From: Omnitrophica bacterium RIFCSPLOWO2_12_FULL_50_11
Lineage (GTDB): Bacteria; Omnitrophota; Omnitrophia; Omnitrophales; Danuiimicrobiaceae
Assembly (NCBI GenBank): GCA_001804315.1
Contig: MHFT01000074.1
Location: forward strand, 23,457-58,965
DNA: 35,509 nt
Direction of reading: 5' to 3'
A model generated the notes under the pieces. The model was given only the letters and a program-made list of their open reading frames with translations, was not told the DNA's origin and did not search any database. A program made the translations under genes and the position numbers. This document shows positions 1,286 through 24,405 of the stretch, one piece after another; the first letter of the stretch is position 1; every line of letters begins with the position of its first letter.

Positions 1286-2064
1286 GAACGGCACTTGTCG
1301 GAGGTTCAAGCAAAGGGTTGGGACTGGCATGCGCTCGTGCGCTTGCAGCTGAAAACTACAGGGTGGTGCTATGCGCGCGCAATCGAGACGTTCTCGAAAA
1401 CGCTGCTCGTGACATCTGCACTGCCGAAGGAACAGAAGTAATTGCGATCCGTTGCGATCTGTCAAAACGTGAGTCGCTGGCAACTTTAAAGGATGAACTG
1501 ACCAAACGGAACTTGCAGGTCGACATTTTGATTAATAACGTTGGTGGCCCACCACCAGGCGTAGTCACAGAATTGTCAGAGGCAGAGTGGGAATATGGTT
1601 TAGATCTTCTTTTTCGTTCCACGGTTCGTCTTTACAATATGTTTCTTCCAGGAATGCGCGAACGCAAATGGGGCAGGATCGTGAACATTCTCTCCACCAC
1701 CGCTGTGGAACCTGTGTCGACGTTGGCCGTGTCGAGCGTATTGCGCGCTGCCATAGCTTCCTATGCCAAACTCGTGGCTTGGGAGGTCGCAAGAGACGGT
1801 GTCATTGTAAATAGCGTCATGCCGGGCGGTTTTCGGACGGCACGTGCGGAGGCATTAGCGCTCGATCTCGCGCGACGCCGAAGTGTTACCGTTGAACGTA
1901 TTCGAAATGAGAAGACGGCAGACATTCCAATCCAGCGATTGCTTGAGCCTGAGGAGCTGGGTCATTTGATGACGTTTCTCGTTTCGGATGAAGCCGCAGC
2001 CATTGTAGGCGCGCTCATTCCTATCGACGGCGGTGTGCTGAAATCGTTGCAGGGGTGCGTGTGA
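1282..2064 (+). CDS. SDR family oxidoreductase (3-oxoacyl-ACP reductase-like; PtmA-like position)
   Basis: ALVGGSSKGLGLACARALA Rossmann motif, NNVGG, C-terminal DGG. GTG start at 1282 overlaps the upstream TGA (GTGA). Confidence 0.8.
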   Translation: MRTALVGGSSKGLGLACARALAAENYRVVLCARNRDVLENAARDICTAEGTEVIAIRCDLSKRESLATLKDELTKRNLQVDILINNVGGPPPGVVTELSEAEWEYGLDLLFRSTVRLYNMFLPGMRERKWGRIVNILSTTAVEPVSTLAVSSVLRAAIASYAKLVAWEVARDGVIVNSVMPGGFRTARAEALALDLARRRSVTVERIRNEKTADIPIQRLLEPEELGHLMTFLVSDEAAAIVGALIPIDGGVLKSLQGCV

Positions 2065-3122
2065 ATTCTATGGGAGGCCAGATTCAGATGGGCAGGTACC
2101 GAGTGGGTGAGCACCTGCCTTGTTTTGTGATTGCAGAGGCCGGTGTCAATCATAACGGTGATTTAGATATGGCGCGGGCGCTCGTAGATGTGGCGGTTCG
2201 AGCAGAAGCCAATGCCGTTAAGTTTCAAAGTTTCAAGGCATCGAAGTTGGCTACACCCTGTGCACCTAAAGCTGAATATCAATTGAGAACCACCGATGCT
2301 GAAGAGTCTCAGTATCAGATGCTGGAACATCTCGAACTTTCCCAGATGGCTCATCGGGCGCTCGTGGATTACTCGAGGGACAAAGGTATCCTTTTCATGT
2401 CAAGTCCTTTCGACGAGGAAAGTGCTGATCTTCTTGATGATTTGGGAGTGGACGTATTCAAAATTCCATCCGGCGAGATCACGAATCTTCCGTTTCTTGC
2501 GCATGTGGCCAGAAAGAAAAAGCCGATGATCGTTTCGACAGGGATGTCTTATTTGGACGAGGTCAATGATGCAGTCAAGGCGATTCGGAATGCAGGCTGT
2601 AAAGAACTCATCTTGTTGCACTGTGTATCGAGTTATCCTACTGATCCATCGGATGCGAATCTCCGAGTCATGGAGACGATGAGCAAGACGTTTCAAGTGC
2701 CTGTGGGTTTTTCGGATCACACTCCTGGAATTGAAGTGTCGCTCGCTGCCGTGGCACTCGGCGCTTGTGTGATTGAGAAACATTTCACCCTCGACACAAC
2801 GTTGCCTGGTCCAGACCAAAGGATTTCTTTGGACCCTCACGAATTACAGGCGCTTATCTCTGGAATCAGGAAGGTAGAACAAGCGTTGGGTACCGGCGCG
2901 AAGGAACCCGCGCCGTCGGAGGCAAACACGCGTCTCGTCGCACGACGCAGTATTGTAGCTGCGCGTGATATCTTGCAAGGTAGCCTGCTGTCTTCCGACA
3001 TGCTGACGACCCTGCGGCCGGCTACGGGTATTGCTCCGACCATGGCGGATCAGTTGGTAGGCCGCCGTGCAAAACGGTCACTCAAATCAGGGGAGTTAAT
3101 CTTCTGGAGCGACGTAGAATGA
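2055..3122 (+). CDS. legI: N-acetylneuraminate/legionaminate synthase (NeuB/LegI family) with C-terminal SAF domain
   Basis: FVIAEAGVNHNGDLDMARALVDVAVRAEANAVKFQSF, KIPSGEITNLPFL, HCVSSYPT, GFSDHTPG, GACVIEKHFTLD...GPDQ all intact; SAF-like tail ARRSIVAARDILQGSLLSSDML. Confidence 0.9.
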   Translation: MRVNSMGGQIQMGRYRVGEHLPCFVIAEAGVNHNGDLDMARALVDVAVRAEANAVKFQSFKASKLATPCAPKAEYQLRTTDAEESQYQMLEHLELSQMAHRALVDYSRDKGILFMSSPFDEESADLLDDLGVDVFKIPSGEITNLPFLAHVARKKKPMIVSTGMSYLDEVNDAVKAIRNAGCKELILLHCVSSYPTDPSDANLRVMETMSKTFQVPVGFSDHTPGIEVSLAAVALGACVIEKHFTLDTTLPGPDQRISLDPHELQALISGIRKVEQALGTGAKEPAPSEANTRLVARRSIVAARDILQGSLLSSDMLTTLRPATGIAPTMADQLVGRRAKRSLKSGELIFWSDVE

Positions 3123-4315
3123 GAACGATCGGTGTCGTGACGGTATCCCGCTCTGACTATGGGGCTTTTGTGCCTGTTTTAGAGCGAATCCGTGAGGATC
3201 CGGAGCTTCATTTGCACCTGATTGCGTCGGGGATGCATCTAGCTCCGGAATTCGGATTGACGGTAGGGTTAATTGAATCTGATGGTTTTGAGGTTGGTGA
3301 TCGTGTCGAAATGCTGCTATCATCCGACACGCCGGAAGGGATTAGTAAGTCGATCGGCCTAGGCGTGATTGGGTTTGCGCAAGCCTTTTCCCATCTTCGT
3401 CCGGACATACTTTTGGTACTAGGTGACCGCTTTGAAACATGCGCGGCAGCCTTAGCTGCTCTTCCTTTTAATATTCCCATCGCTCAAATTCATGCCGGGG
3501 AGGAAACCCGAGGGGCAATGGATAATGTCTTGCGGCACTGCATTACCAGATTGAGCCACACACATTTCGTTTCGAATGAACTGTATGCCCAGCGCGTGAT
3601 CGAGCTCGGCGAAGAAGCCTGGCGCGTCGTTGTATCAGGCGCACCCAGTCTTGACCATTTGGACTCAATTGAGCTATTAAGTGCCTCCCGGCTCGAACGC
3701 GAATACGGGATTCAATTGGATCGGCCGCCGCTTTTAGTCACATATCATCCCGTCACTTTGGAATATGAACAGACCGAATGGCAAGTGAACGAGTTATTGT
3801 GTGCTTTAGAAGCGTCGGGGTTGCCGGTGGTCTTTACATTACCTAACGCAGATACGCGAAGCCGAAGTGTAATTCGAATGGTCAAACAATTTGCTCAAGA
3901 TCATGATTTCATACAGATCGTGGATAATTTCGGTTCGAAAGGTTACTTCAGCATGATGGCGCTCGCGCTAGCGATGGTGGGTAATTCTTCCAGCGGGATT
4001 GTAGAAGCCCCTTCGTTTAAGCTTCCTGTGGTGAACATTGGCACGCGGCAGGAAGGGCGGATGAAGGCGATCAATGTGATCGACGTTGGTTACCGTCGCG
4101 ATCAGATTTTGGAAGGGATCCGAAAAGCCGTTGACCCGGAATTTCGCAAGCGTTTGACGAATTTAGAAAATCCTTACCGAAGCGGCCAAGCCGCTCGGAA
4201 AATTGTGAGCCACTTGAAGGCGATGACTTTGGATGAGCGGTTGATCAAAAAGCACTTCGCGGATTTGACGCTTCGTCGTGAGCCGGTTGCATCGAAGGAC
4301 GGATGCAATTCATGA
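3119..4315 (+). CDS. legG: UDP-N-acetylglucosamine 2-epimerase (hydrolysing) family, NeuC/LegG-like
   Basis: GVVTVSRSDYGAFVPVLERI, LVLGDRFE, IAQIHAGEETRGAMDNVLRHCITRLSHTHF, GNSSSGIVEAPSFKLPVVNIGTRQEGR. ATGA overlap with the upstream gene. Confidence 0.9.
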   Translation: MRTIGVVTVSRSDYGAFVPVLERIREDPELHLHLIASGMHLAPEFGLTVGLIESDGFEVGDRVEMLLSSDTPEGISKSIGLGVIGFAQAFSHLRPDILLVLGDRFETCAAALAALPFNIPIAQIHAGEETRGAMDNVLRHCITRLSHTHFVSNELYAQRVIELGEEAWRVVVSGAPSLDHLDSIELLSASRLEREYGIQLDRPPLLVTYHPVTLEYEQTEWQVNELLCALEASGLPVVFTLPNADTRSRSVIRMVKQFAQDHDFIQIVDNFGSKGYFSMMALALAMVGNSSSGIVEAPSFKLPVVNIGTRQEGRMKAINVIDVGYRRDQILEGIRKAVDPEFRKRLTNLENPYRSGQAARKIVSHLKAMTLDERLIKKHFADLTLRREPVASKDGCNS

Positions 4316-5010
4316 GCAACCTTGTCTGTGTCATTTTGGGCGGCGGTGGACATGCACAGGTGCTCATCGACAGCATTCAAGCTCAAGATGCGGCTGTCAT
4401 CTACGGTGTTCTCGATCGAGATAGTTCTCTATGGGGGAAGGAGGTATTGGGCGTACCTATTGTTGGAGACGATCTCTTACTACCAGAAGTCGTGAGCCGC
4501 GGTGTGAACTGCTTTGCAGTAGGAATGGGTTCAACGGGCGACAATCACGCACGAAAGCGTTTGTTCGATCTCGGCGTGGCTTATCATCTGGCTCCTTTAA
4601 CTGTCATTCATCCTCGTGCGGTTTGTTCAAAATGGGCTCGTGTGGGTGCGGGTTCGCAGCTTATGCCCGGCAGTATTGTTAACGCCGGAGCAACCGTGGG
4701 AATGAATGTGATCGTGAACACAGGTGCAATTGTGGAGCACGATTGCGTGCTCAGAGACCACGTGCACGTGGCGACCGGTGCACGGTTAGCCAGCACCGTG
4801 GAGGTTGGTCCCGGTGCTCATGTGGGCGCCGGTGCTGTCGTCAAGCAGTGTATTGTGATTGGTGAGGGCGCCGTTGTCGGCGCAGGCGCTGTCGTGGTTG
4901 AAGATGTTTCCGCTTTTACGGTGGTTGCAGGGGTGCCGGCGCGTCGGCTGCGTGAAGTCGAAACGCAATCACTTTTCTCGTGTGGAAATTCAGAAGGGTC
5001 GCGAAGTTGA
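4303..5010 (+). CDS. NeuD/PglD-family sugar O/N-acyltransferase (LegH candidate)
   Basis: ILGGGGHAQVLIDSI N-terminal PglD_N motif followed by left-handed beta-helix hexapeptides (VGAGSQLMPGSIVNAGATVGMNVIVNTGAIVEHDC). Confidence 0.85.
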   Translation: MQFMSNLVCVILGGGGHAQVLIDSIQAQDAAVIYGVLDRDSSLWGKEVLGVPIVGDDLLLPEVVSRGVNCFAVGMGSTGDNHARKRLFDLGVAYHLAPLTVIHPRAVCSKWARVGAGSQLMPGSIVNAGATVGMNVIVNTGAIVEHDCVLRDHVHVATGARLASTVEVGPGAHVGAGAVVKQCIVIGEGAVVGAGAVVVEDVSAFTVVAGVPARRLREVETQSLFSCGNSEGSRS

Positions 5011-5879
5011 ATATTCGCATCATCCCGCGTCTGGATATCAAGGGACCAAATTTGGTGAAGGGGATTCACTTGGAAGGTTTACGCGTTTTGGGCAAACCTG
5101 AATGTTTTGCCCGCTATTATTACGAAAACGGGGCTGACGAACTTTTTTATATGGACGCGGTGGCAAGTTTGTACGGGCGAAATAGCTTGTTGGAAATTAT
5201 TAAGAGAACCTCACAGGAGGTTTTTATTCCTCTCACGGTTGGCGGTGGTCTGAGAAGTGTGGACGACATTCGAACTGTCTTGCGCGCCGGAGCAGATAAG
5301 GTATCGATTAATACGCGAGCGATCCAGCGGCCCGAATTAATCCGTGAAGCTTCCAAAGCCTTTGGTTCATCGACGATCGTAGTATCGATTGAGGCGATCC
5401 GAAAACCGGACGGCACTTATGAGGCTTACACGGATTACGGCCGCCAAAGAACGGGTGTCGATGTGTTTGAATGGGTATTACGGGCAACGGAACTGGGAGC
5501 GGGAGAACTCGTAGTGACAAGCATTGATCGAGAAGGCACGGGGAAAGGATACGACGTGGAATTAACGCGGAGGATTGCCCAAGCGGTGCCTATCCCCGTC
5601 ATTGCTCATGGTGGCGCAGGAGAACCTCGTCATCTTTATGAGGTCATCGTGGAAGGGAAAGCAGATGCTGTGAGCTTCGCATCGATCGTGCATTACCATT
5701 ACATTAAGCACTCTAGCTATGACCACAAGGATTTTTTAGAAGAGGGCAATATTGAATTTTTGCGGCGGAGAACAGGATTTTCCAGGATTCACGATGCCTC
5801 GCTGCCGCAGATCAAGACGTATTTGGTTCAGCACGGCGTATTGTGTCGGAACGAAGCAACAGAGGCTGTACATGCGTGA
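5007..5879 (+). CDS. HisF-like imidazole glycerol phosphate synthase cyclase paralog (acetamidino-sugar pathway type)
   Basis: IIPRLDIKGPNLVKGIHLEGLR, PLTVGGGLRSVDDI, GADKVSINT, TSIDREGTGKGYD, IAHGGAG. TTG start at 5007 overlaps the NeuD-like TGA (TTGA). Genomic context is sugar, not histidine, biosynthesis. Confidence 0.85.
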   Translation: MNIRIIPRLDIKGPNLVKGIHLEGLRVLGKPECFARYYYENGADELFYMDAVASLYGRNSLLEIIKRTSQEVFIPLTVGGGLRSVDDIRTVLRAGADKVSINTRAIQRPELIREASKAFGSSTIVVSIEAIRKPDGTYEAYTDYGRQRTGVDVFEWVLRATELGAGELVVTSIDREGTGKGYDVELTRRIAQAVPIPVIAHGGAGEPRHLYEVIVEGKADAVSFASIVHYHYIKHSSYDHKDFLEEGNIEFLRRRTGFSRIHDASLPQIKTYLVQHGVLCRNEATEAVHA

Positions 5880-6567
5880 TCGAGAAGGCATCCACATCGC
5901 AATCGTGGACTATGGCTTGGGCAATCTCTTCAGCGTTAAGAATGCTTGCGAATTTTCTGGCATGGAGGCCACGATCACTTCGTCACGACACGAGATGCTA
6001 GAGGCAGATGCCATTCTTTTGCCCGGTGTAGGTGCTTTTGGCGATGCGATGGAGTCACTGGTGAAGTTGGATTTAATCGGTCCTCTCCGGGACGTTTTTC
6101 GATCCAATAAACCGTTGATTGGAATCTGCCTTGGTATGCAGCTCGTGATGAGTGAAAGTTTCGAGTTTGGAAAACATCAAGGCTTGGGCTTTATCGAAGG
6201 GCCGGTTGTGCGATTTGACAATCAGGGGACTTCGTCTGGTCGGCTCAAAGTTCCTCAGGTGGGGTGGAATCGTATTCTTAAAGCGAAAAATGGTCCTTCA
6301 TGGTCGGGAACGCTTTTAGACGGATTACGGGACGGTGCCTATGTGTACTTTGTCCATTCTTTCTATGTCAAACCTTTGAATCCAGGTGTGATTTTATCCG
6401 TTTCAGAGTACGGGGGGATTGAGTTTTGTTCGAGTCTGAGATATCAAAATATTTATGCGTTTCAATTCCATCCTGAGCGAAGCGGCCCTCAAGGATTGAA
6501 GATTTATCAGAATCTGGGCCCTTTCATTAAAGGGCAGAAGGGCTTGACCCAGCATGCAAACGCTTGA
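5872..6567 (+). CDS. HisH-like glutamine amidotransferase subunit paralog
   Basis: IAIVDYGLGNLFSVKNAC, LPGVGAFGDAM, GICLGMQL (nucleophile Cys), FQFHPERSG (His/Glu). ATG at 5872 overlaps the HisF-like stop. Confidence 0.87.
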   Translation: MRDREGIHIAIVDYGLGNLFSVKNACEFSGMEATITSSRHEMLEADAILLPGVGAFGDAMESLVKLDLIGPLRDVFRSNKPLIGICLGMQLVMSESFEFGKHQGLGFIEGPVVRFDNQGTSSGRLKVPQVGWNRILKAKNGPSWSGTLLDGLRDGAYVYFVHSFYVKPLNPGVILSVSEYGGIEFCSSLRYQNIYAFQFHPERSGPQGLKIYQNLGPFIKGQKGLTQHANA

Positions 6568-6603
6568 AAAAAACGACACGTTTCTCAAAAGATCAGAGCA
6601 GAA

Positions 6604-7671
6604 ATGAATCCTAAATTGTGCGTCACGCCTCGGGACACGATCCGTCAGGCAATTGCATACATGAATGAAAACGTGAAAGGTATTGTCTTAGTCGTGGCGC
6701 CTGACGGGCAACTTCTCGGAACGGTTACGGATGGGGACTTACGACGCGCATTTTTGAATGGTAGAAATTTGGAGACATTGGTGAGCGAGCTACTCGCCGA
6801 TAAGCAGAAGTCTCCGCATCCGACGCCGGTGACAGCAAAGTGCAGAAGTGAACACTCCATTTTATTACAAATGATGCGGCACCATTGTGTTAACCACTTA
6901 CCATTGCTGGACGATGACGGGCGTGTCGTGGACCTCGTGACGCTAAAAGATCTGATCCCCGGCCGCGCGACGCCACTAAAAGCTGTGATCATGGCAGGGG
7001 GATACGGCATGGGTTTGCGTCCTTTGACGGAGACTGTGCCTAAGCCCCTGTTGCTGGTAGGCGATCGTCCATTAATGGAACGGATTATCCAACAGTTGCA
7101 CGAAACGGGGGTTCGACACGTGAGCATTACCACATACTATCTTGCCGAAAAGATCATGGAGTATTTTGGAGACGGGCGAGATTTTGGTGTCGAGCTCAGC
7201 TACCTCAATGAAGATAGCCCATTGGGTACCGCGGGTGGATTGGGTCTCATGCCGGATTTTAAGGGACCTTTGTTGGTTGTGAATGGTGACATTCTCACGG
7301 AAGTGAATTTCCGTGCAATGCTGGCGTATCACGAGGAGCATCAGGCGGTTCTCACCGTGGCGGTACATAAGTACGACATTGAGGTACCTTATGGGGTGGT
7401 CGAATCAGATGGACCCTTCGTTCGCAGTTTGGTCGAAAAACCGTCCAAAAGTTTCTTCGTGAACGCAGGAATCTATTTTTTGGAGCCAGCAGCACGTCGT
7501 TACATTCCTGTCGGGCAGCGGTTTGAAATGACCGACTTGATTCAGCGGTTGCTTCTCGAGGGGCAACCTGTCGTTAATTTTCCGATCCTTGAATCCTGGC
7601 TGGATATCGGACGTCAGGCAGCTTACGGCCGCGCACAGGAAATCGTCGGCAAAGGAGAAGTTCAAACTTGA
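6604..7671 (+). CDS. CBS-domain pair + sugar nucleotidyltransferase (PtmE-like, candidate GlcN-1-P guanylyltransferase)
   Basis: Two CBS-like repeats (ATG start; GIVLVVAPDGQLLGTVTDGDLRRA; VNHLPLLDDDGRVVDLVTLKDL) followed by KAVIMAGGYGMGLRPLTETVPKPLLLVGDRPLMERII and VVNGDILTEV. Confidence 0.82.
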   Translation: MNPKLCVTPRDTIRQAIAYMNENVKGIVLVVAPDGQLLGTVTDGDLRRAFLNGRNLETLVSELLADKQKSPHPTPVTAKCRSEHSILLQMMRHHCVNHLPLLDDDGRVVDLVTLKDLIPGRATPLKAVIMAGGYGMGLRPLTETVPKPLLLVGDRPLMERIIQQLHETGVRHVSITTYYLAEKIMEYFGDGRDFGVELSYLNEDSPLGTAGGLGLMPDFKGPLLVVNGDILTEVNFRAMLAYHEEHQAVLTVAVHKYDIEVPYGVVESDGPFVRSLVEKPSKSFFVNAGIYFLEPAARRYIPVGQRFEMTDLIQRLLLEGQPVVNFPILESWLDIGRQAAYGRAQEIVGKGEVQT

Positions 7672-8654
7672 ACTGGAATGGGAAACAGGTGCTCGTAACG
7701 GGTGCCGGCGGTTTTATCGGTAGCCATCTCGTAGAGCGGTTGGTCGCTGCGGGGGCTTCTGTTCGAGCGTTCGTCCACTACAATGCGCTCGGTCGAGCAG
7801 GCTGGCTGGATCTGTCGCCCGTACGTGGGGACATTGAAATTGTTTCGGGTGATGTATGCGATTGGGATAGTGTGCGTAAGGCGATGCATGGCGTGGAGAT
7901 TGTTTTCCACCTTGCCGCACTGATTGCCATACCTTATTCTTATGAGGTTCCATCAGCCTATGTGCGCACGAATATTCACGGCACACTTCACGTTCTACAG
8001 GCGGCACATGAATTAGGTGTCGAACGGCTGATCCATACTTCTACAAGCGAGGTCTACGGCACTGCACGCTACGTGCCTATGGACGAAAATCACCCTTTGC
8101 AGGGGCAGTCTCCCTATTCTGCAAGTAAAATTGGCGCTGATAAATTGGCGGAAGCATTTTACTATTCGTACCGCATTCCGGTTGTGATCGTGCGGCCCTT
8201 TAACACTTTTGGCCCACGTCAGTCCCTTCGCGCAATCGTTCCGACCATCATCGCTCAGTGTTTGACCAACGGCGCCGTGCGATTAGGGAACCTCTACCCC
8301 ACTCGGGACCTGAATTATGTGGACGACATCGCCCGCGGATTTCTCAAGGCAGCGGAGTCACCTGAAGCAATTGGAAAAACGATCAATCTAGGTTCCGGGA
8401 AGGAAGTCAAGATCAGCGAATTGGTCCAATTGATCGCTGGATTTGTTGGTAGAAACATTAGGATCGAATCGGATGTTCAACGCGTACGTCCTAAAGAAAG
8501 TGAAGTCGAACGCTTACAAGCTGATAACACATTAGCTCGACAGATCTTAGGTTGGCAACCGTCCTCTGACTCGCTCGAAAAGGGGTTGCATCTCACGATT
8601 GATTGGATAAAAAGTCATCTTGAAGAATATCGGCTCCATGCTTACACGATCTGA
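7668..8654 (+). CDS. legB: NAD-dependent 4,6-dehydratase/epimerase, LegB-like
   Basis: VLVTGAGGFIGSHLVERLVAAGASVRAFVHYNALG, HTSTSEVYGTA, YSASKIGADKLAEAFYYSYRIPVVIVRPFNTFGPRQS. TTG start in a TTGA overlap. Confidence 0.85.
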   Translation: MNWNGKQVLVTGAGGFIGSHLVERLVAAGASVRAFVHYNALGRAGWLDLSPVRGDIEIVSGDVCDWDSVRKAMHGVEIVFHLAALIAIPYSYEVPSAYVRTNIHGTLHVLQAAHELGVERLIHTSTSEVYGTARYVPMDENHPLQGQSPYSASKIGADKLAEAFYYSYRIPVVIVRPFNTFGPRQSLRAIVPTIIAQCLTNGAVRLGNLYPTRDLNYVDDIARGFLKAAESPEAIGKTINLGSGKEVKISELVQLIAGFVGRNIRIESDVQRVRPKESEVERLQADNTLARQILGWQPSSDSLEKGLHLTIDWIKSHLEEYRLHAYTI

Positions 8655-9846
8655 GCTGAGTAAACAAGTCGAGGAACACGTGATTCCTCTTTGTGTGCCT
8701 GAGATTCGGGGTAACGAATGGACGTACGTGAAAGAATGTTTGGACACGAACTGGGTTTCCTCCGTTGGTCCTTTTGTTGACCGTTTCGAGCGGATGGTTG
8801 GAAACTATGTGGGGACGAAATACGCTGTTGCTACGATGAATGGCACCGCCGCACTGCATGTTGCGTTATTGGTCGCCGGCGTGCAACCTGACGATGAAGT
8901 GCTTGTATCCACATTATCGTTTATCGCTCCTGCCAATGCGATCCGCTACGTCGGCGCGTGGCCAGTTTTCGTTGATGCAGAGCCCGACTACTGGCAAATG
9001 GATCCTGAGAAAGTGAAGGAGTTCCTGGCAGAAGGCTGTCGGTGGCGGAATGGAGCGCTTTACAATCAACATACAGGACGGCGAATCAAGGCGATCTTGC
9101 CCGTGCACATTTTAGGTCATCCGTGTGACTTGGATCCGATCCTCGCGTGTGCGCGCAAATACAACTTGGTTGTCATCGAGGATGTTGCAGAGAGTCTAGG
9201 TGCCCGATACAAAGGGCGTAAGGTAGGTCAACTGGGCGATATCAGTTGCTTGAGTTTTAACGGAAATAAAATCGTGACTGCCGGAGGTGGCGGGATGGTT
9301 CTAACGGGGAATGAAGCGTGGGCTCGGCGGGCAAAGTATTTAACCGTTCAAGCTGAGGATGATGCGCTGTCGCGTATTCATCAGGAGATTGGTTACAACT
9401 ATCGGTTGACGAACCTTCAAGCCGCAATTGGATGTGCTCAATTAGAACGGCTTGATGAATACATTGTGGCGAAGCGACAGATTGCTACTGCTTATCGGCG
9501 GGCGTTTGAACGCATTTCTAACATGATTGTACCACAAGAAGCACCGTGGGCATTTAGCATTTATTGGCTGTACACGGTTCTTATGGATGGCATAGAAGGC
9601 GAAGACCATAGCCGTAGAATTGCGAAATGTTTGTTAAGCTCTGGCATTCAAGCACGGTTGCTTTGGCAGCCGCTTCACTTGTCTCCTGCCCATCGCGGTG
9701 CATATGCATGCTCCTGTGATGTCGCCGAACGAATTTTTAACTCGGCACTCAGTTTGCCTAGCTCAGTAGGTCTGAGTGCAACAGATCAAGATCGTGTGAT
9801 TCAACGTCTCCGAGAGATCGCTGAGAACGAATGGAAGGTCGTTTAA
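8638..9846 (+). CDS. legC: DegT/DnrJ/EryC1/StrS aminotransferase, LegC-like
   Basis: IPLCVPEIRGNEWTYVKECLDTNWVSSVGPFVDRFE, NGTAALHVALL, PVHILGHPCDLDPI, IEDVAESLGARYKGRKVGQLGDISCLSFNGNKIVTAGGGGMV (PLP Lys). Confidence 0.85.
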   Translation: MLTRSELSKQVEEHVIPLCVPEIRGNEWTYVKECLDTNWVSSVGPFVDRFERMVGNYVGTKYAVATMNGTAALHVALLVAGVQPDDEVLVSTLSFIAPANAIRYVGAWPVFVDAEPDYWQMDPEKVKEFLAEGCRWRNGALYNQHTGRRIKAILPVHILGHPCDLDPILACARKYNLVVIEDVAESLGARYKGRKVGQLGDISCLSFNGNKIVTAGGGGMVLTGNEAWARRAKYLTVQAEDDALSRIHQEIGYNYRLTNLQAAIGCAQLERLDEYIVAKRQIATAYRRAFERISNMIVPQEAPWAFSIYWLYTVLMDGIEGEDHSRRIAKCLLSSGIQARLLWQPLHLSPAHRGAYACSCDVAERIFNSALSLPSSVGLSATDQDRVIQRLREIAENEWKVV

Positions 9847-12032
9847 TTGTGGCTGACGGTCCATTAACGATTTTGACCGATTTGTATTCGGATCCGGTTG
9901 CTGAAGAGCTTAAGGAACGTTGGCCGCGGCATCAACTAAATATTCGCTATCTAAGGAAACAAGAAGGAAAATGGTCCTCATCTGCTCATGATCCGTTGAT
10001 GCAAGCGACCCTTTTAGATCCCGATGTTTCAGAAGTGCTCGTCGATGGTGGAATTAAATTTCGTTACGCCTTTTTGCAGCAGGGCTGGAAGCTCACGACG
10101 CATTTTTCTCGTGACGTGATCGGGAAAAGTTTTTGGATCCGCTTCATCGGTCGGGCCTCAAGCAGTCGGAGCGCTCAGGTATTTTATCTTCGGGAGTTTT
10201 ACAAAAGGGTGAGTCCATGGATTTTTCTCTGTTTGTATGCGCGTCACTTGTCCACAGAAGCGTCTTGCAATGAAAAATCGACAATCGTTTTTCTCGCGCT
10301 TAACCCCTTTGACGACTGGATCGTGGATTGCCTTCGAGATGTTTACGCTTCGATCGTCGTCGGCCGTAGAAGCTCTGATGCAAAAGCGTTCCGAATAGCC
10401 AGTGTTGATCTCATCAAACGCTTTCAACGACGATGGAAGCGTTTACGATCAAAACATCTGAAAGCTGTTAAGGAGGAAACGGTATCTGCCAACGATCGGC
10501 CTGTCGCTGTTGAAGTTTGTTGGGGACTCCACGATCCAGAGGAAGCGCATTCCGACCTGTTCTGGTTGCCGCGATCAGGGATTACTGATGATCAAGTGAT
10601 GGTTTATTTCGACCGCTCAGATCGTCCCCCTTCTGAAAAAGCGCTGGAGACCATCCGGAAGCGTGGCTGGCAGCCGTTTGTCTTGAGTCGTCAGCTTGAA
10701 TCGAGGACGGATGCAGTCCGGATGAGCTTGTACGCATTGAAGGTGGTAGGATGGAGAATGCTCCTCATGGTTTTAGCGTATCCCCTTTGGGTACTGGAGC
10801 ATCCCCTCAGACGCCGTACCTTCCGGTGGTGTTGGACGCGTACTTTGGCTTCATTGGTTCGGGTAACTTTTTGGCACCACATTTTCACAGGTTATCGTGT
10901 TCGGGTTCACAGCAACCACAGTGACCAAGCCTGTCTTCACCATGCAGTCCAAACGATTGCGCTGGAGTGGGGGGGAGGTATCAATCTTCACACGACTTTT
11001 TCCTTTGACTACGGTCCGAGCAAGATGAAAGGGGCGTATGCAACTCCTTTTGACGTCTTTTTTGCATGGGGTGCCTATATCGCTGGTATTGTTTCCACAT
11101 GCGATTTGGCAGGGATCACAACCTTGATTACGTGTGGCTTTCCTTTTGACTACCTGTTTAAAGGCGCCGGGCGTCGGGCAGGCGGTGTCCGCCGTGAACT
11201 CGAAGCACGAGGTGCGCGGAGGATCATTAGTTTTTTCGATACCGCATTTAACAAAATGACGCAGTCGCCGCAAGGAGAAGCTCAGCATATTTACCAAGCC
11301 CTATTGACAGAGGTGACTAAAAATCGTGAGTTCGGTTTGGTACTAAAACCTAAGAATATTTGGGAAGAAGCCAAAGCAGCCATCCCTGAGGAGTTGCTTC
11401 AGCAAGCTTTAGCAACCGGGCGGTGTAAGTTACTCATCCGCCACTCCTACAGTGAGCCTCCCATTAGTCCTGCTGATGCTGCCCTTGCTTCGGATCTCGC
11501 AGTGGGTTGCCCCATCAGTTCTGCAGTGATTGAAGCCGTGTTGGCAGGAGTACCTGGGGTTCATATGGACCTCGCTAAGGAACCCGGCCACTGGTTCTAC
11601 GAAGTGGATTCCGAGAAGTTTGTCTTTAATGACCTCGATCAAGCCATGGAGACCATCCGACGCTGGATCCGCAATCCAGCCGATGAACCCAAACTAGGTG
11701 ACCATTCTCAGGTCTTGGATGGAATCGACCCCTTCCGAGACGGCAAAGCGGCCCAGCGCATTGGCCAATATATGGCTTGGCTCCTTGAAGGATTCAAGGA
11801 GGGCTTAAGCCGGGATGGTGTGGTCCGACAAGCGACCCACCGATATGCAGAAGAGTATGGTGCTCAACATGTGCGCCTCGCACCGAGGTTGTGTGCAAAA
11901 GGAATCCATCGACACAGGTATTCACCCCGCCCCACGGTGGGGCGGAGCAAAGCTGTGGAGCGGGGTGAATTTGGAGAATTGACTCAGAGGGTAGGCCATG
12001 CAAGTTCTCGGCAAAGTCCGCAGTTCAATTGA
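9831..12032 (+). CDS. Large uncharacterised glycosyltransferase-like protein (GT-B-like C-terminal half; paralog A)
   Basis: 733 aa; GLVLKPKN..., ASDLAVGCPISSAVIEAVLAGVPGVH resembles donor-domain motifs of capsule/LPS GT-B enzymes. Homologous along its whole length to the ORF at 13206-15350. Confidence 0.6.
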   Translation: MEGRLIVADGPLTILTDLYSDPVAEELKERWPRHQLNIRYLRKQEGKWSSSAHDPLMQATLLDPDVSEVLVDGGIKFRYAFLQQGWKLTTHFSRDVIGKSFWIRFIGRASSSRSAQVFYLREFYKRVSPWIFLCLYARHLSTEASCNEKSTIVFLALNPFDDWIVDCLRDVYASIVVGRRSSDAKAFRIASVDLIKRFQRRWKRLRSKHLKAVKEETVSANDRPVAVEVCWGLHDPEEAHSDLFWLPRSGITDDQVMVYFDRSDRPPSEKALETIRKRGWQPFVLSRQLESRTDAVRMSLYALKVVGWRMLLMVLAYPLWVLEHPLRRRTFRWCWTRTLASLVRVTFWHHIFTGYRVRVHSNHSDQACLHHAVQTIALEWGGGINLHTTFSFDYGPSKMKGAYATPFDVFFAWGAYIAGIVSTCDLAGITTLITCGFPFDYLFKGAGRRAGGVRRELEARGARRIISFFDTAFNKMTQSPQGEAQHIYQALLTEVTKNREFGLVLKPKNIWEEAKAAIPEELLQQALATGRCKLLIRHSYSEPPISPADAALASDLAVGCPISSAVIEAVLAGVPGVHMDLAKEPGHWFYEVDSEKFVFNDLDQAMETIRRWIRNPADEPKLGDHSQVLDGIDPFRDGKAAQRIGQYMAWLLEGFKEGLSRDGVVRQATHRYAEEYGAQHVRLAPRLCAKGIHRHRYSPRPTVGRSKAVERGEFGELTQRVGHASSRQSPQFN
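11288..11896 (+). repeat. Direct repeat copy 1 (~609 bp, near-identical, ungapped) encoding the C-terminal domain of paralog A
   Basis: Aligns without indels (offset 3432 bp) to 14720-15328; contains perfect tracts 11288-11398 (111 bp) and 11437-11564 (128 bp). Confidence 0.9.
11920..11970. repeat. 51-bp nested inverted repeat / stem-loop element
   Basis: Outer arms ATTCACCCCGC (11920-11930) / GCGGGGTGAAT (11960-11970) perfect; inner arms CGCCCCAC (11928-11935) / GTGGGGCG (11937-11944). The arms share bases, so alternative folds are possible. Confidence 0.75.
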
Positions 12033-13206
12033 CAGACAGTTAGAGCGGCAACCCAAAGAAGTTATTTTTTGTAAGAAGTGTGTTGTCTCCAACCAACGGC
12101 CGCGTATTCAATTTGACGGGAATGGAGTGTGCAGCGCTTGCCAATATGCCTACCAAAAGGAATATGTCATCGATTGGAAGGAGCGGGAGCGCGAATTGAG
12201 GGATTTGTGCGACAGATACCGGCGTCTGGACGGTCGTTACGACGTCGTCGTTCCTGCGAGTGGTGGCAAAGACAGTGGTACAGTGGCACACAAGCTGAAG
12301 CACCAGTATGGCATGCATCCACTCACAGTGACATGGGCTCCCTTTATTTATACACAGATCGGATGGCGGAATTACCAGAATTTTGTGAAATCGGGTTTCA
12401 CAAACATCATGGGTGTGGCAAACGGTCATTTACATCGCAAATTAGCTCGGGTGGCATTTGAAGCGGTAGGTGACGTTTTCGTGCCGTTTATTTACGGGCA
12501 GACCTCGTATCCTTTTCACATTGCGCTTCAGTTTGACATCAAGCTCGTCTTTTTTGGAGAGAACTCCGAGGGTGAGTATGGCGGCGATCCTGGTACCTTG
12601 GGTCTCGTGGGAATGCCGGTCGAAAAGTGGGCCGATCAATATTACAAGGGTACGACTGTGGAGGATCTCATTGAATGGGGTCTCGAAACAGGCTTGCTGA
12701 GCAAAAGCGATTATGATGAGTCCGACTTGACGTTTTACAAGCCGCCGTCCGCGGAAGTTCTACGGGAGCGGGATATTCAGTGGCATTTTTTCGGATACTA
12801 TCACAAATGGATTCCGCAGGAATGTTACTACTATGCGGCGGAACACAATGGTTTTCAAGCCAATCCGGATGGACGGTCGGAAGGCACGTACTCCAAGTAT
12901 GCAAGTCTAGATGATTGTCTGGATGGTTTTCATTATTACATGGGTTTTATTAAATTTGGCATCGGTCGCGCGACTTCGGATGCAGCTCATGAAGTACGCG
13001 ACGGGCATCTGACTCGCTCCGAGGCAGTACAACTCGTGCACCGTTACGACGGCGAGTTTCCTAAAAAGTATTTGCGTGAGTCTCTGGCTTATCTTGACAT
13101 GACGGAAGAGAAGATGTGGGAAATCGTCGATCAGTACCGCCCGCCGCATCTTTGGCAAAAGGTGAACGGCGCACGGCAATTGAAATATAAGGTTTCCAAT
13201 TTGTAG
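11998..13206 (+). CDS. N-acetyl sugar amidotransferase (PseA/WbpG family, PP-loop)
   Basis: CKKCVVSNQRPRIQFDGNGVCSACQY zinc-ribbon-like start, VPASGGKDSGTVAHKL PP-loop, FFGENSEGEYGGDP, typical family architecture. Confidence 0.88.
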   Translation: MQVLGKVRSSIDRQLERQPKEVIFCKKCVVSNQRPRIQFDGNGVCSACQYAYQKEYVIDWKERERELRDLCDRYRRLDGRYDVVVPASGGKDSGTVAHKLKHQYGMHPLTVTWAPFIYTQIGWRNYQNFVKSGFTNIMGVANGHLHRKLARVAFEAVGDVFVPFIYGQTSYPFHIALQFDIKLVFFGENSEGEYGGDPGTLGLVGMPVEKWADQYYKGTTVEDLIEWGLETGLLSKSDYDESDLTFYKPPSAEVLRERDIQWHFFGYYHKWIPQECYYYAAEHNGFQANPDGRSEGTYSKYASLDDCLDGFHYYMGFIKFGIGRATSDAAHEVRDGHLTRSEAVQLVHRYDGEFPKKYLRESLAYLDMTEEKMWEIVDQYRPPHLWQKVNGARQLKYKVSNL

Positions 13207-13226
13207 TGCCAGGTAGCAATTTGGCA

Positions 13227-15350
13227 ATGGAGGAGAATCGCCGTCTTTGCGTGTGGACGGACGTATGGTCAGAGGCGCTAGCTAGAAAACTGTTGCGTTT
13301 GTGGCCGAACCGCACTTTGGACGTCTATTACCTCAAACGAGATGGGAATAATAGGCAGCGGGATGACGCCAGGTATCCGATTCGGGTTTTTCAGCTTGAT
13401 CCTGATGTTTCTTCGATCTGGCTGCCTCAGGGGATCAAGTTCGACCATGCGCTGTGGAAGCACGTATGGGATCTAACGATGCTTTTCCGTCACACGACGC
13501 TTAAAGAAAGTATTTGGTCCCGATGGATCGGCTGGATCTACAGTTCTCGTTTAGCAGAAGTCTTGTATCTTCGCAATTTCCACCGCACGGTCGAACCTTG
13601 GGTTTTGCTGTGCCTTTATGCGCGATATCTGTGTGAAACGGGGCACAACGGGAAAACGAGGCCTATCGTGTTTCTCTCATCAAATTCTTTCGGGACGAGC
13701 GTCGCCCATTACTTGAAGACGATTTATGAGGATGTGGATTATTCTGAGCCTTCCTTTTCCGAGTTGCTTCTCAATCCGTGGCGGACCATTTTAACCGGGT
13801 CCGTTGTGTTGGCGCGTGATAAGGTCAGAGGAATGGTGAAAACGTTCAGGGCGCCAAAGCGAAAGCGAACTTCAACAAAGGAACAAGCGAAAGAGTGCGC
13901 GAACGGCAAACGATCCAATCATAAGAGGAGCGTTGCGGTCGAAGCACATTTAGGACTGGACTTTGAGAGAAGTCGTTCCGACCTTTTCTGGTTGCCGAAA
14001 TCCGGCATTCCGAATGATCAGATTTTAGTTTATTTTGGGCGGTCACAGATGCCGCCTTCGAGTACGGCACTCGCGGCTGTTAAATCTCACGGTTGGGAAT
14101 CTTATGTGTTGGATTTACCGAGAGACAGGCCTCCTGCCGAGAAGTTCGGTCCCTACGGGGTTCGTTGTCAGTGGTGGCGGGCATTCCTCATGTTGCTTGT
14201 CGCGCCGGTTTGGTTACTGGCAAAACCTGCAAGATCTCGCATGGTGCAATGGTGTTGGCAGGTGGCATCTACCTCTCTCGGAAAATCCGCATTTTGGTAC
14301 AGTAGTCTCTTTTCCGATCATGAGGTTCGTCTTCACAGTAATTACAGTGATTGTATTGGATCCCAACATATGGACCAATCACTTGCGCTCGAGTGGCAAG
14401 GTGGACTGAATCTCCAAGTTCTGTTTTCGATCGACACACCTCCTCCGATTGCGAGATGCGCTTCAAGGTCGTCGCCGTATGACGTATGGTTCGTTTGGGG
14501 TTCCTACACGGCTCGTGGTTGTCAAGATTTTGACGTCTCCGGCATCACGACGTTCATTGCTTGCGGTTATCTGTTTGATTATCTGTTTGAAAGCGCCCGG
14601 CAAAAGGCTCTTGTATTGCGGCATGAACTCCAGGAGGCAGGGGCCCAAAGAATCATCAGTTTTTTTGACACGGGCTTCGGTAAGGTCAATTGTCCTGCGA
14701 CTAGAGAGGATATGGAAGGTATTTACCAAGCCCTATTGACAGAGGTGACTAAAAATCGTGAGTTCGGTTTGGTACTAAAACCTAAGAATATTTGGGAAGA
14801 AGCCAAAGCAGCCATCCCTGAGGAGTTGCTCAAGCAAGCGTTGGCAACGGGCAGGTGTAAGTTACTCGTCCGCCACTCCTACAGTGAGCCTCCCATTAGT
14901 CCTGCTGATGCTGCCCTTGCTTCGGATCTCGCAGTGGGTTGCCCCATCAGTTCTGCAGTGATTGAAGCCGTGTTGGCAGGAGTACCTGGGGTTCATGTGG
15001 ATGTGACACGTCAGCCCGGCCACTGGTTCTACGAAGTGGATTATGAGAAGTTTGTCTTTAATGACCTCGATCAAGCCATGGAAACCATCCGGCGCTGGAT
15101 TCGGAGTCCAGCCGATGAACCCAAACTGGGTCACCACACTCAAGTCCTGGATGGAATTGACCCTTTCCGAGACGGCAAAGCAGCCCAGCGCATTGGTCAA
15201 TATATGGCTTGGCTCCTTGAAGGATTTAACCAGGGCTTAAGTCGTGATGATGTGGTCCGGCAAGCAACCCACCGATATGCAGAAGAGTATGGTGCTCAAT
15301 ATGTGCGGCTTGCACCCAGATTGTGTCGAGTGAAACCATTGTGCGCTTAG
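13227..15350 (+). CDS. Large uncharacterised glycosyltransferase-like protein (paralog B of 9831-12032)
   Basis: Same architecture as paralog A (LDPDVS...GIKF, SDLFWLPKSGI, DVxGITTxIACG, RIISFFDT). C-terminal ~200 aa ~93% identical to A; upstream portion much lower by eye. The ORF extends to a GTG at 13206; ATG 13227 is an alternative start. Confidence 0.6.
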   Translation: MEENRRLCVWTDVWSEALARKLLRLWPNRTLDVYYLKRDGNNRQRDDARYPIRVFQLDPDVSSIWLPQGIKFDHALWKHVWDLTMLFRHTTLKESIWSRWIGWIYSSRLAEVLYLRNFHRTVEPWVLLCLYARYLCETGHNGKTRPIVFLSSNSFGTSVAHYLKTIYEDVDYSEPSFSELLLNPWRTILTGSVVLARDKVRGMVKTFRAPKRKRTSTKEQAKECANGKRSNHKRSVAVEAHLGLDFERSRSDLFWLPKSGIPNDQILVYFGRSQMPPSSTALAAVKSHGWESYVLDLPRDRPPAEKFGPYGVRCQWWRAFLMLLVAPVWLLAKPARSRMVQWCWQVASTSLGKSAFWYSSLFSDHEVRLHSNYSDCIGSQHMDQSLALEWQGGLNLQVLFSIDTPPPIARCASRSSPYDVWFVWGSYTARGCQDFDVSGITTFIACGYLFDYLFESARQKALVLRHELQEAGAQRIISFFDTGFGKVNCPATREDMEGIYQALLTEVTKNREFGLVLKPKNIWEEAKAAIPEELLKQALATGRCKLLVRHSYSEPPISPADAALASDLAVGCPISSAVIEAVLAGVPGVHVDVTRQPGHWFYEVDYEKFVFNDLDQAMETIRRWIRSPADEPKLGHHTQVLDGIDPFRDGKAAQRIGQYMAWLLEGFNQGLSRDDVVRQATHRYAEEYGAQYVRLAPRLCRVKPLCA
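14720..15328 (+). repeat. Direct repeat copy 2 encoding the C-terminal domain of paralog B
   Basis: Matches 11288-11896 at constant offset 3432. Confidence 0.9.
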
Positions 15351-17433: not shown

Positions 17434-18228
17434 ATGGCTGTCGCTGCTTTAATGTTAGGGCGTGGTGGAAGCAAAGGTTTTCCTGAAAAAAATCTCTCTA
17501 TTGTTCTAGGACGTCCGCTCATGGCCTATCCACTTTTAGCGGCCCAAGCAAGTAAATATGTCAGCTACATTTATGTTTCCACAGACTCTGAGGCGATCAT
17601 GGCAGCCGGTCGTCGTTATGGTGCGGAGATTATCGTGCGGCCGCCAGAGCTGTGCACGCCAGAAGCATTGGGTGAAGACGCGTTCGTTCACGGCTACCGC
17701 GTGATTCGTCATCGGCTTTCTGAAAACGGTGAAACGGTCGAGCTCATGGTATTGCTCTTGGCAAACGCGGCGACGGTTACAGGAAGATTAATTGACGAAG
17801 GAATTGAGAAGTTGCGGGCGGATCCAACCCTCGATTCGGCTGTTACGGTATCTCGATACAACATGTGGAGTCCTTTGAGAGCGCGCCGCTTGGCAGAGGA
17901 TGGTTGCTTACATCCTTTTTTTCCATTCGGAGCGTTTGCTGAGTCAAAGACCCTGAGTTCTCATCGCGATTCGCAAGGCGATGTTTACTTTGCTGATATG
18001 GGTGTTTCAGTCGTCCGTCCGCGTTGCTTGGAAGATATAGCGAGTGGTTTACTCCCGCAAAAGTGGATGGGTCGTCGCATCGCTCCGATCCATTCTTGGG
18101 GAGGCTGCGACGTGGATTACGAGTGGCAGATAGCGGGTGTTGAATACTGGTTGCGCAAACAAGGTAGGGAAGCTCCTGTTGATGTGAACTGCGATGAGCC
18201 ACGCACAAGCAGTCTACCGAAAGCATAA
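17434..18228 (+). CDS. NeuA/LegF-like CMP-sugar synthetase (cytidylyltransferase)
   Basis: ALMLGRGGSKGFPEKNLSIVLGRPLMAYPLLAA, IYVSTDSEAIMAAGRRYGAEIIVRPPEL, C-terminal DVDYEWQIAGVEYWL. Confidence 0.85.
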   Translation: MAVAALMLGRGGSKGFPEKNLSIVLGRPLMAYPLLAAQASKYVSYIYVSTDSEAIMAAGRRYGAEIIVRPPELCTPEALGEDAFVHGYRVIRHRLSENGETVELMVLLLANAATVTGRLIDEGIEKLRADPTLDSAVTVSRYNMWSPLRARRLAEDGCLHPFFPFGAFAESKTLSSHRDSQGDVYFADMGVSVVRPRCLEDIASGLLPQKWMGRRIAPIHSWGGCDVDYEWQIAGVEYWLRKQGREAPVDVNCDEPRTSSLPKA

Positions 18229-22374: not shown

Positions 22375-24405
22375 ATGAAGATTCTGGCTGTTTTTGATCG
22401 TTGCGTTCAATTAAGAGGTCTAAAGAAAATAGACATGAGGAATCACGGGAGCGTTGTAGATATTTTTTCTCTTACGTCCGATGCGTCACTCGTCGAACGG
22501 ATGAAACGTGAATTAACAGAACGAAATGTTGGATCCGTCGGCTGTCTGAATTCCGCCAAATTAATCGATGAACATGTCACCCGTTTGCGGGAAGGCTTAT
22601 GCAGTTGGACGGCAAAGGTAGGCGGGACGAAGGTTCAAGGCAAGACCGTCAAAGAGTGGTTTGAGTTACCTGGAGAGCGCGTTAGTACCTGGTGGTTTGG
22701 ATTGCTTTCCGAAAAGAATAACTTCAAGACCGCTGCTTTTTTAAAAGTTGCGCAGCTTCATGCATTGCAAGAGGTGATGGCGCAGGGTGGTTACCACCTG
22801 TGTATGGTAGGCGTTTTGGACCAGGATTTGCGCCGATCCATTTGGAATTTAGGCGCGGCGCTTAAGATCGAGATCAAATTCATTCCCGCGGTTCCACCCC
22901 GAAATTTTAAGCGGAGGGTCAGATCCATTTTGGAAAGTTTCGGACTGCTGGGAGATTTGTGCCTAGGTATGGTTTACTGGTTTCAATTTTTATGGCGGGG
23001 ATTTATGGCTCGGAGACTTTTAGGTTCGCGTACCGACCGCCTGCCGCATTCCGATGCGCTATTTTTTGTCAGTTATTTCCGAGGCTCCGACGGAACAACT
23101 GCTCGACAAGGTGTCTACCGAAATGAGTATGCGTCGGCGCTTCAAGAAAAATTGAAAGAATTGCATATTCCAATTGTGTGGTTGTTTCGATGTTTGCGAC
23201 CTCCTGGTTCCGACTTTTATGGAATGCTTTCTCTCGCAAAACATTTTGCGAGGAACGGAGAAAAACTTTTCGTGTTGGAGGAGTTCTTGACGTTCAAAGA
23301 CGCGGTGAGGAGTCTCGCTCTGTGGCTTCAGCAGGTGTTTTTGAGCACCTATCTTTATGGGCATTTGGATCGGTCCTGTTTACTTTCCGAACCTATTGGA
23401 GCTGCAGCGGAGCCGGTGATCAAGTCGTTATGGAACGAATCTTTTCGGATTTATTCTGGTTTGGACGGAATCCTCAATTACTTTTCCTTTAGAGGAGCGT
23501 TTCGCGGGGTCCCGCGTATTACCGACTGTCTTTACTTTGCAGAGATGCATGCTTGGGAGAAAGCGTTAAATGCAGCCAAAAAAAAAGAAAAACCCGAGAT
23601 CCGGACCATAGGTTTCCAACACAGCAGTGTCTCACGGAACTATTTTCCTTACTTTTATGCTCCAAGCGAAACGACGGTGCGTCGGGAAACCCAAGATGTG
23701 CCTCTGCCTGACGTGCTTGCATGTAACGGTGAACTTACGTGTGCACGTCTGTCCGAGTCGGGCTATCCAAACCTTACCCCGGTTGAGGCGGTGCGTCATT
23801 TGTATTTAGATGAACCGCTGTCGTGCGAGCTTCCTACTCGCGCAAATGGACCCATTTTATTGGTTGCGGGTTCCATTGACAGGGCTGAGGCAGGTGCTTT
23901 GGTTGCGCTTGTCTATGGAGCTTTTCCGAAATCGGAGCAATTCGAGATCTGGTTCAAGGGGCATCCCTCGATGCCGTTTGAACCGGTCTTCCTGGAAAGC
24001 GGTATTGACGTGCGCAAGACGGGTTATAAGATTTGCGACAATGATGAGGTAAATTGCCTCAGAGACGTTTGGATCGTCTTGGTTCCCTCCAGTTCGGTTG
24101 CAATCGAAGCATTAGCATTCGGATGCGAAGTGATCGTTCCGGTCTTTCCAGATTCTGTATGCATGAACCCCTTGGTCGGTTACGAAGAGTATTGTCACAA
24201 GGTAACGTGCATCGAAGAGCTCCGGGTGACCATTGAAGGAATCATAAGTGGCAAGGCTGTGAACAACACGGATGAAAAGAAGCTGTTTACGAGACGATAT
24301 TGGGATTTGGACCGAAAGATGCCCAAATGGGAAAACTTGTTGAGACGATACCGCATAGATCAGGTCGATCATGTCAAAAGTAAGCGTCATTATTCCTACG
24401 TATAA
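22375..24405 (+). CDS. Surface carbohydrate biosynthesis / GT-B-like protein (resembles TIGR04326-type proteins)
   Basis: 676 aa; TIGFQHSSVSRNYFPYF, GPILLVAGSIDRAEAGALVALVYGAF, FEIWFKGHPSMPF, VLVPSSSVAIEALAFGCEVIVP. Confidence 0.55.
   Translation: MKILAVFDRCVQLRGLKKIDMRNHGSVVDIFSLTSDASLVERMKRELTERNVGSVGCLNSAKLIDEHVTRLREGLCSWTAKVGGTKVQGKTVKEWFELPGERVSTWWFGLLSEKNNFKTAAFLKVAQLHALQEVMAQGGYHLCMVGVLDQDLRRSIWNLGAALKIEIKFIPAVPPRNFKRRVRSILESFGLLGDLCLGMVYWFQFLWRGFMARRLLGSRTDRLPHSDALFFVSYFRGSDGTTARQGVYRNEYASALQEKLKELHIPIVWLFRCLRPPGSDFYGMLSLAKHFARNGEKLFVLEEFLTFKDAVRSLALWLQQVFLSTYLYGHLDRSCLLSEPIGAAAEPVIKSLWNESFRIYSGLDGILNYFSFRGAFRGVPRITDCLYFAEMHAWEKALNAAKKKEKPEIRTIGFQHSSVSRNYFPYFYAPSETTVRRETQDVPLPDVLACNGELTCARLSESGYPNLTPVEAVRHLYLDEPLSCELPTRANGPILLVAGSIDRAEAGALVALVYGAFPKSEQFEIWFKGHPSMPFEPVFLESGIDVRKTGYKICDNDEVNCLRDVWIVLVPSSSVAIEALAFGCEVIVPVFPDSVCMNPLVGYEEYCHKVTCIEELRVTIEGIISGKAVNNTDEKKLFTRRYWDLDRKMPKWENLLRRYRIDQVDHVKSKRHYSYV

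Follow-up and report, generated by a model that had tools for sequence, protein, structure and literature searches.

Evidence for repeated gene conversion in the 3' third of two paralogous, predicted glycosyltransferase genes from an Omnitrophota legionaminic acid gene cluster

RESULTS

Two diverged paralogs share a nearly identical 3' third

Two large paralogous genes, g1 and g2, were found to differ extensively over most of their length but to share a nearly identical 3' third, and the distribution of differences between the two copies indicated that gene conversion had taken place within the genome, in two or more episodes. The genes lie in a 35,509-nucleotide stretch of the genome of Omnitrophica bacterium RIFCSPLOWO2_12_FULL_50_11, referred to as the window (Table 1). 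Duplication, divergence and then repeated conversion of the 3' third is the overall explanation that we favor, with a probability of about 0.85.

The original prediction was of an ungapped block of about 609 bp at a constant offset of 3432, with perfect tracts of 111 and 128 bp. Two direct-repeat blocks were detected at this offset; they extended over 608 bp without a gap and contained 50 differences (92% identity), and the two tracts were the longest perfect ones. Comparison at the same offset falls to background upstream of 11288 because of small gaps, and codon alignment indicated that the homology there is real. Over the 483 upstream codons, amino acid identity was 38%, with a pS of 0.80 and a dN of 0.63, while the 202 codons inside the block had 93% amino acid identity, a pS of 0.23, a dS of 0.28 and a dN of 0.036. 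The upstream similarity had been described as being at the level of distant paralogs and this was borne out, with an identity of 46% (pS, 0.80) even in the last 68 codons before 11288. In the first 36 codons of the block, the DNA of g1 and g2 was 100% identical. Synonymous divergence was saturated upstream and dropped abruptly at 11288, with a step and no slope in either synonymous sites or identity.

The sharp edge proposed for the block was confirmed on the left side only. The left edge at 11288 is a true recombination edge, located within homologous sequence, whereas the right edge is the end of both coding regions, beyond which homology is absent, and does not represent a junction in the middle of homology. 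Downstream of the block, g1 carries an extra 45-amino-acid tail, part of which is encoded by a dispersed palindromic repeat. This repeat has the pattern TTCACCCCGCNCCAC ... GTGGNGCGGGGTGAA and approximately five to six copies in the genome, on contigs C2, C74, C97 (twice), C99 and C104; the reversed control pattern had no copies in the genome.

Divergence within the block was patchy, with successive segments having dS values of 0, 1.08 (14 codons), 0, 1.07 (18 codons) and 0.45, and hence more than one exchange was indicated. When differences were permuted inside the block, the longest tract had a P value of ∼3 × 10^-4 (0.00045 for codon permutation), and the second-longest tract was matched by 0 of 20,000 permutations.

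Table 1. Features of the window
Feature	Position	Strand	Basis
NeuB, NeuC, acetyltransferase, HisF, HisH, PtmE-like nucleotidyltransferase, LegB-like and LegC-like genes; legionaminic-type pathway upstream	2055..9846	+	NeuB, NeuC, HisF and HisH by NCBIfam; PtmE, LegB and LegC via counterparts in G084; acetyltransferase by sequence inspection only
g1, paralog 1, predicted GT-B glycosyltransferase without Pfam family, 733 aa	9831..12032	+	ORF; no Pfam match; sister of g2 in trees
Putative converted block in g1, 3' third of gene	11288..11895	+	Base-by-base comparison, codon divergence, permutation
Perfect tract, 111 bp (partner, 14720-14830), dS = 0	11288..11398	+	Base-by-base comparison, codon divergence, permutation
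Perfect tract, 128 bp (partner, 14869-14996), synonymous divergence zero	11437..11564	+	Base-by-base comparison, codon divergence, permutation
Dispersed palindromic repeat directly 3' of block in g1, encoding part of extra C-terminal tail	11920..11970	+	
N-acetyl sugar amidotransferase (WbuX/PtmG-like), between paralogs	11998..13206	+	TIGR03573, 339.5 bits (cutoff, 203.2)
g2, paralog 2, predicted GT-B glycosyltransferase, 714 aa	13206..15350	+	ORF; AlphaFold2 pTM 0.86; Foldseek matches to GT-B enzymes
Putative converted block in g2	14720..15327	+	Base-by-base comparison, codon divergence, permutation
CMP-sugar synthetase, PseF/NeuA type	17434..18228	+	TIGR03584, E value 7.5e-22, below its cutoff

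Comparison with homologs supports exchange between the two copies

An alignment of 33 rows (g1, g2 and 31 homologs from other loci) was utilized to build separate trees on residues 1 to 240, 241 to 505 and 507 to 705. g1 and g2 were sisters with 100/100 support in all three trees and were separated by path lengths of 1.96 (N-terminal), 1.27 (middle) and 0.086 (C-terminal). Across 528 family pairs, C-block identity tracked middle identity (r = 0.90). The g1/g2 pair had 43% identity in the middle segment, for which 59% was predicted in the block, and the observed 92% placed this pair 6.4 residual standard deviations above the line for the 527 other pairs. Identical codons at conserved residues were used at 153 of 181 positions in the block compared to 62 of 165 upstream (Fisher P = 8 × 10^-20).

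These data bear on whether stronger purifying selection could have kept the C-domain similar while the N-terminal half diverged, an explanation to which we attach almost no weight. Within the family, conservation is highest in the C-domain: 20 of the 27 near-invariant family residues (including R550, D574, E587, D656, R662 and Y691) fall in the block, and C identity averages above middle identity across pairs. However, g1 and g2 have no synonymous differences across 239 bp, the drop in pS at the block is marked, and the deviation of g1/g2 from the family regression excludes stronger protein-level constraint. Purifying selection alone was rejected as the cause of the block by the synonymous-site step. 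The dN/dS ratio of ∼0.13 within the block is consistent with purifying selection acting on both copies.

Gene exchange is frequent among surface-sugar clusters, and no member of the family was detected in those relatives from the same order that were searched, as might be expected if both 3' parts had been imported from a third, foreign gene. The C-block and middle trees, however, gave g1/g2 the same neighbor groups (G245/G169/G106/G131 and G254/G232/G118/G185), and a search of the genome assembly detected no third copy of the block. As g1 and g2 are sisters in all segments, replacement from outside does not account for the tract. External domain import thus received no support from the trees and is improbable. 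Genomes from the family, order and class of the source organism were searched and none contained a homolog, and no close relative with an unconverted pair was found. When two further orders of the phylum were searched for closer relatives, distant homologs only were detected.

An assembly artifact was also considered, in which short reads merged or crossed the copies or strain variants were joined. The source genome is a metagenome bin of 107 contigs, and the perfect tracts are near the usual k-mer lengths, such that the phase of segments between g1 and g2 could be crossed. Crossing at the tracts would, however, alter phase and not cause homogenization. Furthermore, the 50 differences were spread through the block and each copy continued into its own distinct downstream gene, indicating two real copies, and the same kind of event was detected in an independent genome (G084; see below). 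The chance of an artifact is consequently slight.

Overall, the proposal of recent gene conversion between the paralogs was supported by the synonymous step, the mosaic tracts, the trees and the family regression. The events would have begun with duplication of an ∼700-amino-acid GT-B glycosyltransferase gene, private to this lineage among the sampled genomes, producing g1 and g2, which now occupy either side of the amidotransferase gene in the legionaminic acid cluster. The copies diverged to synonymous saturation, and homologous recombination between direct copies 3.4 kb apart then probably overwrote one 3' third with the other at least two times, the DNA being copied without exchange of flanks. 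On the left, the tracts stop within homology; on the right, they stop at the gene ends, past which the two genes share no homology.

The block covers most of a predicted nucleotide-binding-type domain

None of the 33 family members matched Pfam, and no family model was matched above its curated cutoff by family members. NCBIfam TIGR04417 (PFTS polysaccharide biosynthesis) gave 14.8 and 16.6 bits for the two proteins (curated cutoff, 100), and NF046086 (BFO_1060 family glycosyltransferase) did not match either protein and gave 24 to 28 bits for two homologs (curated cutoff, 200). Matches to these two profiles were weak (15 to 40 bits against cutoffs of 100 and 200), were present in few family members and fell mostly in the C-terminal part; most members matched neither. 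A sequence search for relatives with solved structures detected none, and a C-domain profile search yielded chance matches only.

An AlphaFold2 model of g2, produced with the 33-row alignment, had a pTM of 0.86. Foldseek searches with this model detected UDP-GlcNAc 2-epimerase, TagF, TarL and UGTs with modest scores (TM by target, ∼0.4 to 0.6), and the donors of the best matches are UDP or CDP linked. A model of the isolated C-domain (pTM, 0.80) matched GT-B C-domains, such as 5i45 and 2bfw, and UDP-bound epimerases, again with modest scores. The proteins are accordingly described as predicted to have two Rossmann-like domains of the GT-B type, with a nucleotide-binding-type C-domain and a putative function in glycosyl transfer. 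The GT-B fold suggested in the original prediction was therefore upheld at the level of a model and its structural matches, and the C-terminal block fell, as modeled, in the nucleotide-binding-type Rossmann domain.

The position of the left edge did not agree with a clean domain swap. In the model, the first strand of the C-domain corresponds to g2 residues 482 to 488 and the block starts at residue 506/507, within the first helix of the domain (residues 500 to 516). As this start is ∼25 residues into the C-domain, the block covers most of the domain but not its beginning. The bacterial sialyltransferase motifs HP and [DE][DE]G were not conserved in the family, and hence these proteins were not classed with that type of bacterial sialyltransferase. 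Gene neighbors are what points to possible use of CMP or NulO by the family.

Gene neighborhood and distribution in Omnitrophota

In the window, g1 and g2 are colocated with genes for CMP-NulO synthesis. A phylum-wide sample of 384 genomes included 54 with a homolog. A scan of genome contigs detected only two loci, one of which was from genome G050; one homolog locus was from a named Omnitrophota MAG and another was on a contig labeled Deltaproteobacteria. Core legionaminic or nonulosonic acid genes were detected above strict scores at 17 of 30 homolog loci and PtmG at 9 of 30, and a family gene was located directly at LegC in 6 of 30 loci, as g1 is in the window. These findings indicate a probable transferase family that has no Pfam entry and is spread over much of the uncultured phylum Omnitrophota.

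Other features of these regions were recorded. A third large surface-carbohydrate protein is encoded at 22375-24405 of the window (TIGR04326, 229 bits, just under the cutoff of 250), and the first open frame of the window (2-1285) appeared by eye to consist of a cytidylyltransferase-like end joined to a NeuB-like synthase domain. In another locus (L033, 2270-4762), an 830-amino-acid frame with a PtmG match of 860 bits, apparently a longer or fused amidotransferase, adjoins HisF and HisH.

A second linked pair has a conversion patch at a different position

A single further locally linked pair was detected, in G084, an independent genome from another Omnitrophota family (L032, 5588-7642 and 11698-13905). 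The gene order was NeuC-PtmE-LegB-LegC-copy1-HisF-HisH-PtmG-copy2, and thus the amidotransferase was again enclosed by a pair. The two copies were each other's sisters in each tree, and a conversion patch was detected in which identical codons were used at 67 of 84 conserved residues compared to 161 of 360 outside the patch (scan P = 5 × 10^-5). This patch was located at g2-equivalent residues ∼399 to 510, immediately N-terminal of the position of the g1/g2 block. Conversion therefore recurs and is not confined to the donor domain, as judged from two pairs only. The genes of G106, which also has two copies, had diverged (37% amino acid identity) and lacked a conversion patch.

DISCUSSION

Donor and acceptor choice

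GT-B enzymes bind the nucleotide sugar with the C-domain. From their gene position, g1 and g2 most likely transfer a legionaminic acid. On this basis, the C-domain would bind a CMP-sugar; the sugar would be legionaminic acid, as suggested by the position beside LegC, PtmG and the CMP-synthetase; and the unconverted N-terminal halves would hold the difference between g1 and g2, either the acceptor or the sugar form (plain versus acetamidino).

The original prediction was of one homogenized donor domain in enzymes with different acceptor specificities, and one possibility is that selection has held a single CMP-Leg donor domain identical in both. The block represents most of the predicted GT-B C-domain, as this reading would suggest, but the location of conversion is not consistent between pairs: the patch in G084 lies outside, and N-terminal of, the block position, and homogenization of the donor domain by selection was not supported. 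The one tested precedent, from Tannerella, also runs counter to it, as two transferases with an identical C-domain differ there in NulO donor and share the acceptor (PMC6388019). This reading is tentative, with the balance of evidence against it.

The Tannerella transferases use different sugars with a shared C-domain, and the N-terminal half may therefore choose the sugar form. The N-terminal halves of g1 and g2 would then select the form of NulO, plain Leg or the acetamidino form made with PtmG, HisF and HisH, with the C-domain in common. The paralogs flank PtmG in the window, the G084 pair flanks HisF-HisH-PtmG, and the Tannerella pair exhibits such behavior between strains (PMC6388019); in contrast, PtmG loci with only one family member were found (L040, L046, L049, L051 and L057). 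This reading, too, is tentative and on balance unlikely. A broader proposal is doubtful: that these genes represent an unrecognized GT-B legionaminic acid transferase family of Omnitrophota, with paired copies around the amidotransferase gene, a shared recombining core and N-terminal halves that discriminate between differently modified legionaminic acids, in which conversion shifts the border between shared and private sequence. Whichever reading applies, g1 and g2 combine a near-identical nucleotide-binding half with a strongly diverged remainder, and they lie next to genes of a known sugar pathway. They therefore offer a direct test of whether donor or acceptor choice by a nonulosonic acid transferase is determined by its N-terminal or its C-terminal half.

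Comparison with known systems

The GtfS and TFUB4_00887 nonulosonic acid transferases of Tannerella forsythia share an identical 241-amino-acid C-terminal domain and have diverged N-terminal parts; their donors are a Pse and a Leg derivative, respectively, the underlying glycan is common to both and they are not interchangeable (PMC6388019). GtfS has been described as being of the GT-B type (PMC6120980). These proteins resemble g1 and g2 in architecture, with an identical or near-identical C-terminal part and different N-terminal parts. They differ in being alleles of different strains, of ∼445 amino acids, and not paralogs in one cluster. In Campylobacter jejuni, Maf1 and Maf4 (a putative Leg transferase) are similar paralogs in a legionaminic acid gene cluster (PMC9298399). 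The clustering of similar paralogous enzymes with legionaminic acid genes is shared with g1 and g2, but the Maf proteins belong to a different family, that of g1 and g2 having no Pfam match, and act on flagellin.

Gene conversion or intragenomic recombination is well described for the pilE and opa surface genes (PMC10745880). In Methanococcales and Methanomicrobiales, mtrA-1 and mtrA-2 are operon paralogs in which one domain has been homogenized by gene conversion (PMC4632066). As in g1 and g2, the remainder of the proteins differs, although the distinct part of the mtrA products arose through domain shuffling and fusion, whereas that of g1 and g2 is a diverged homologous half. Conversion of mtrA has persisted across whole lineages, while that of g1 and g2 was seen in one genome. 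Domain-restricted conversion has thus already been described in prokaryotes and the process itself is not new; what is new here is an instance of this known process in an uncharacterized enzyme family.
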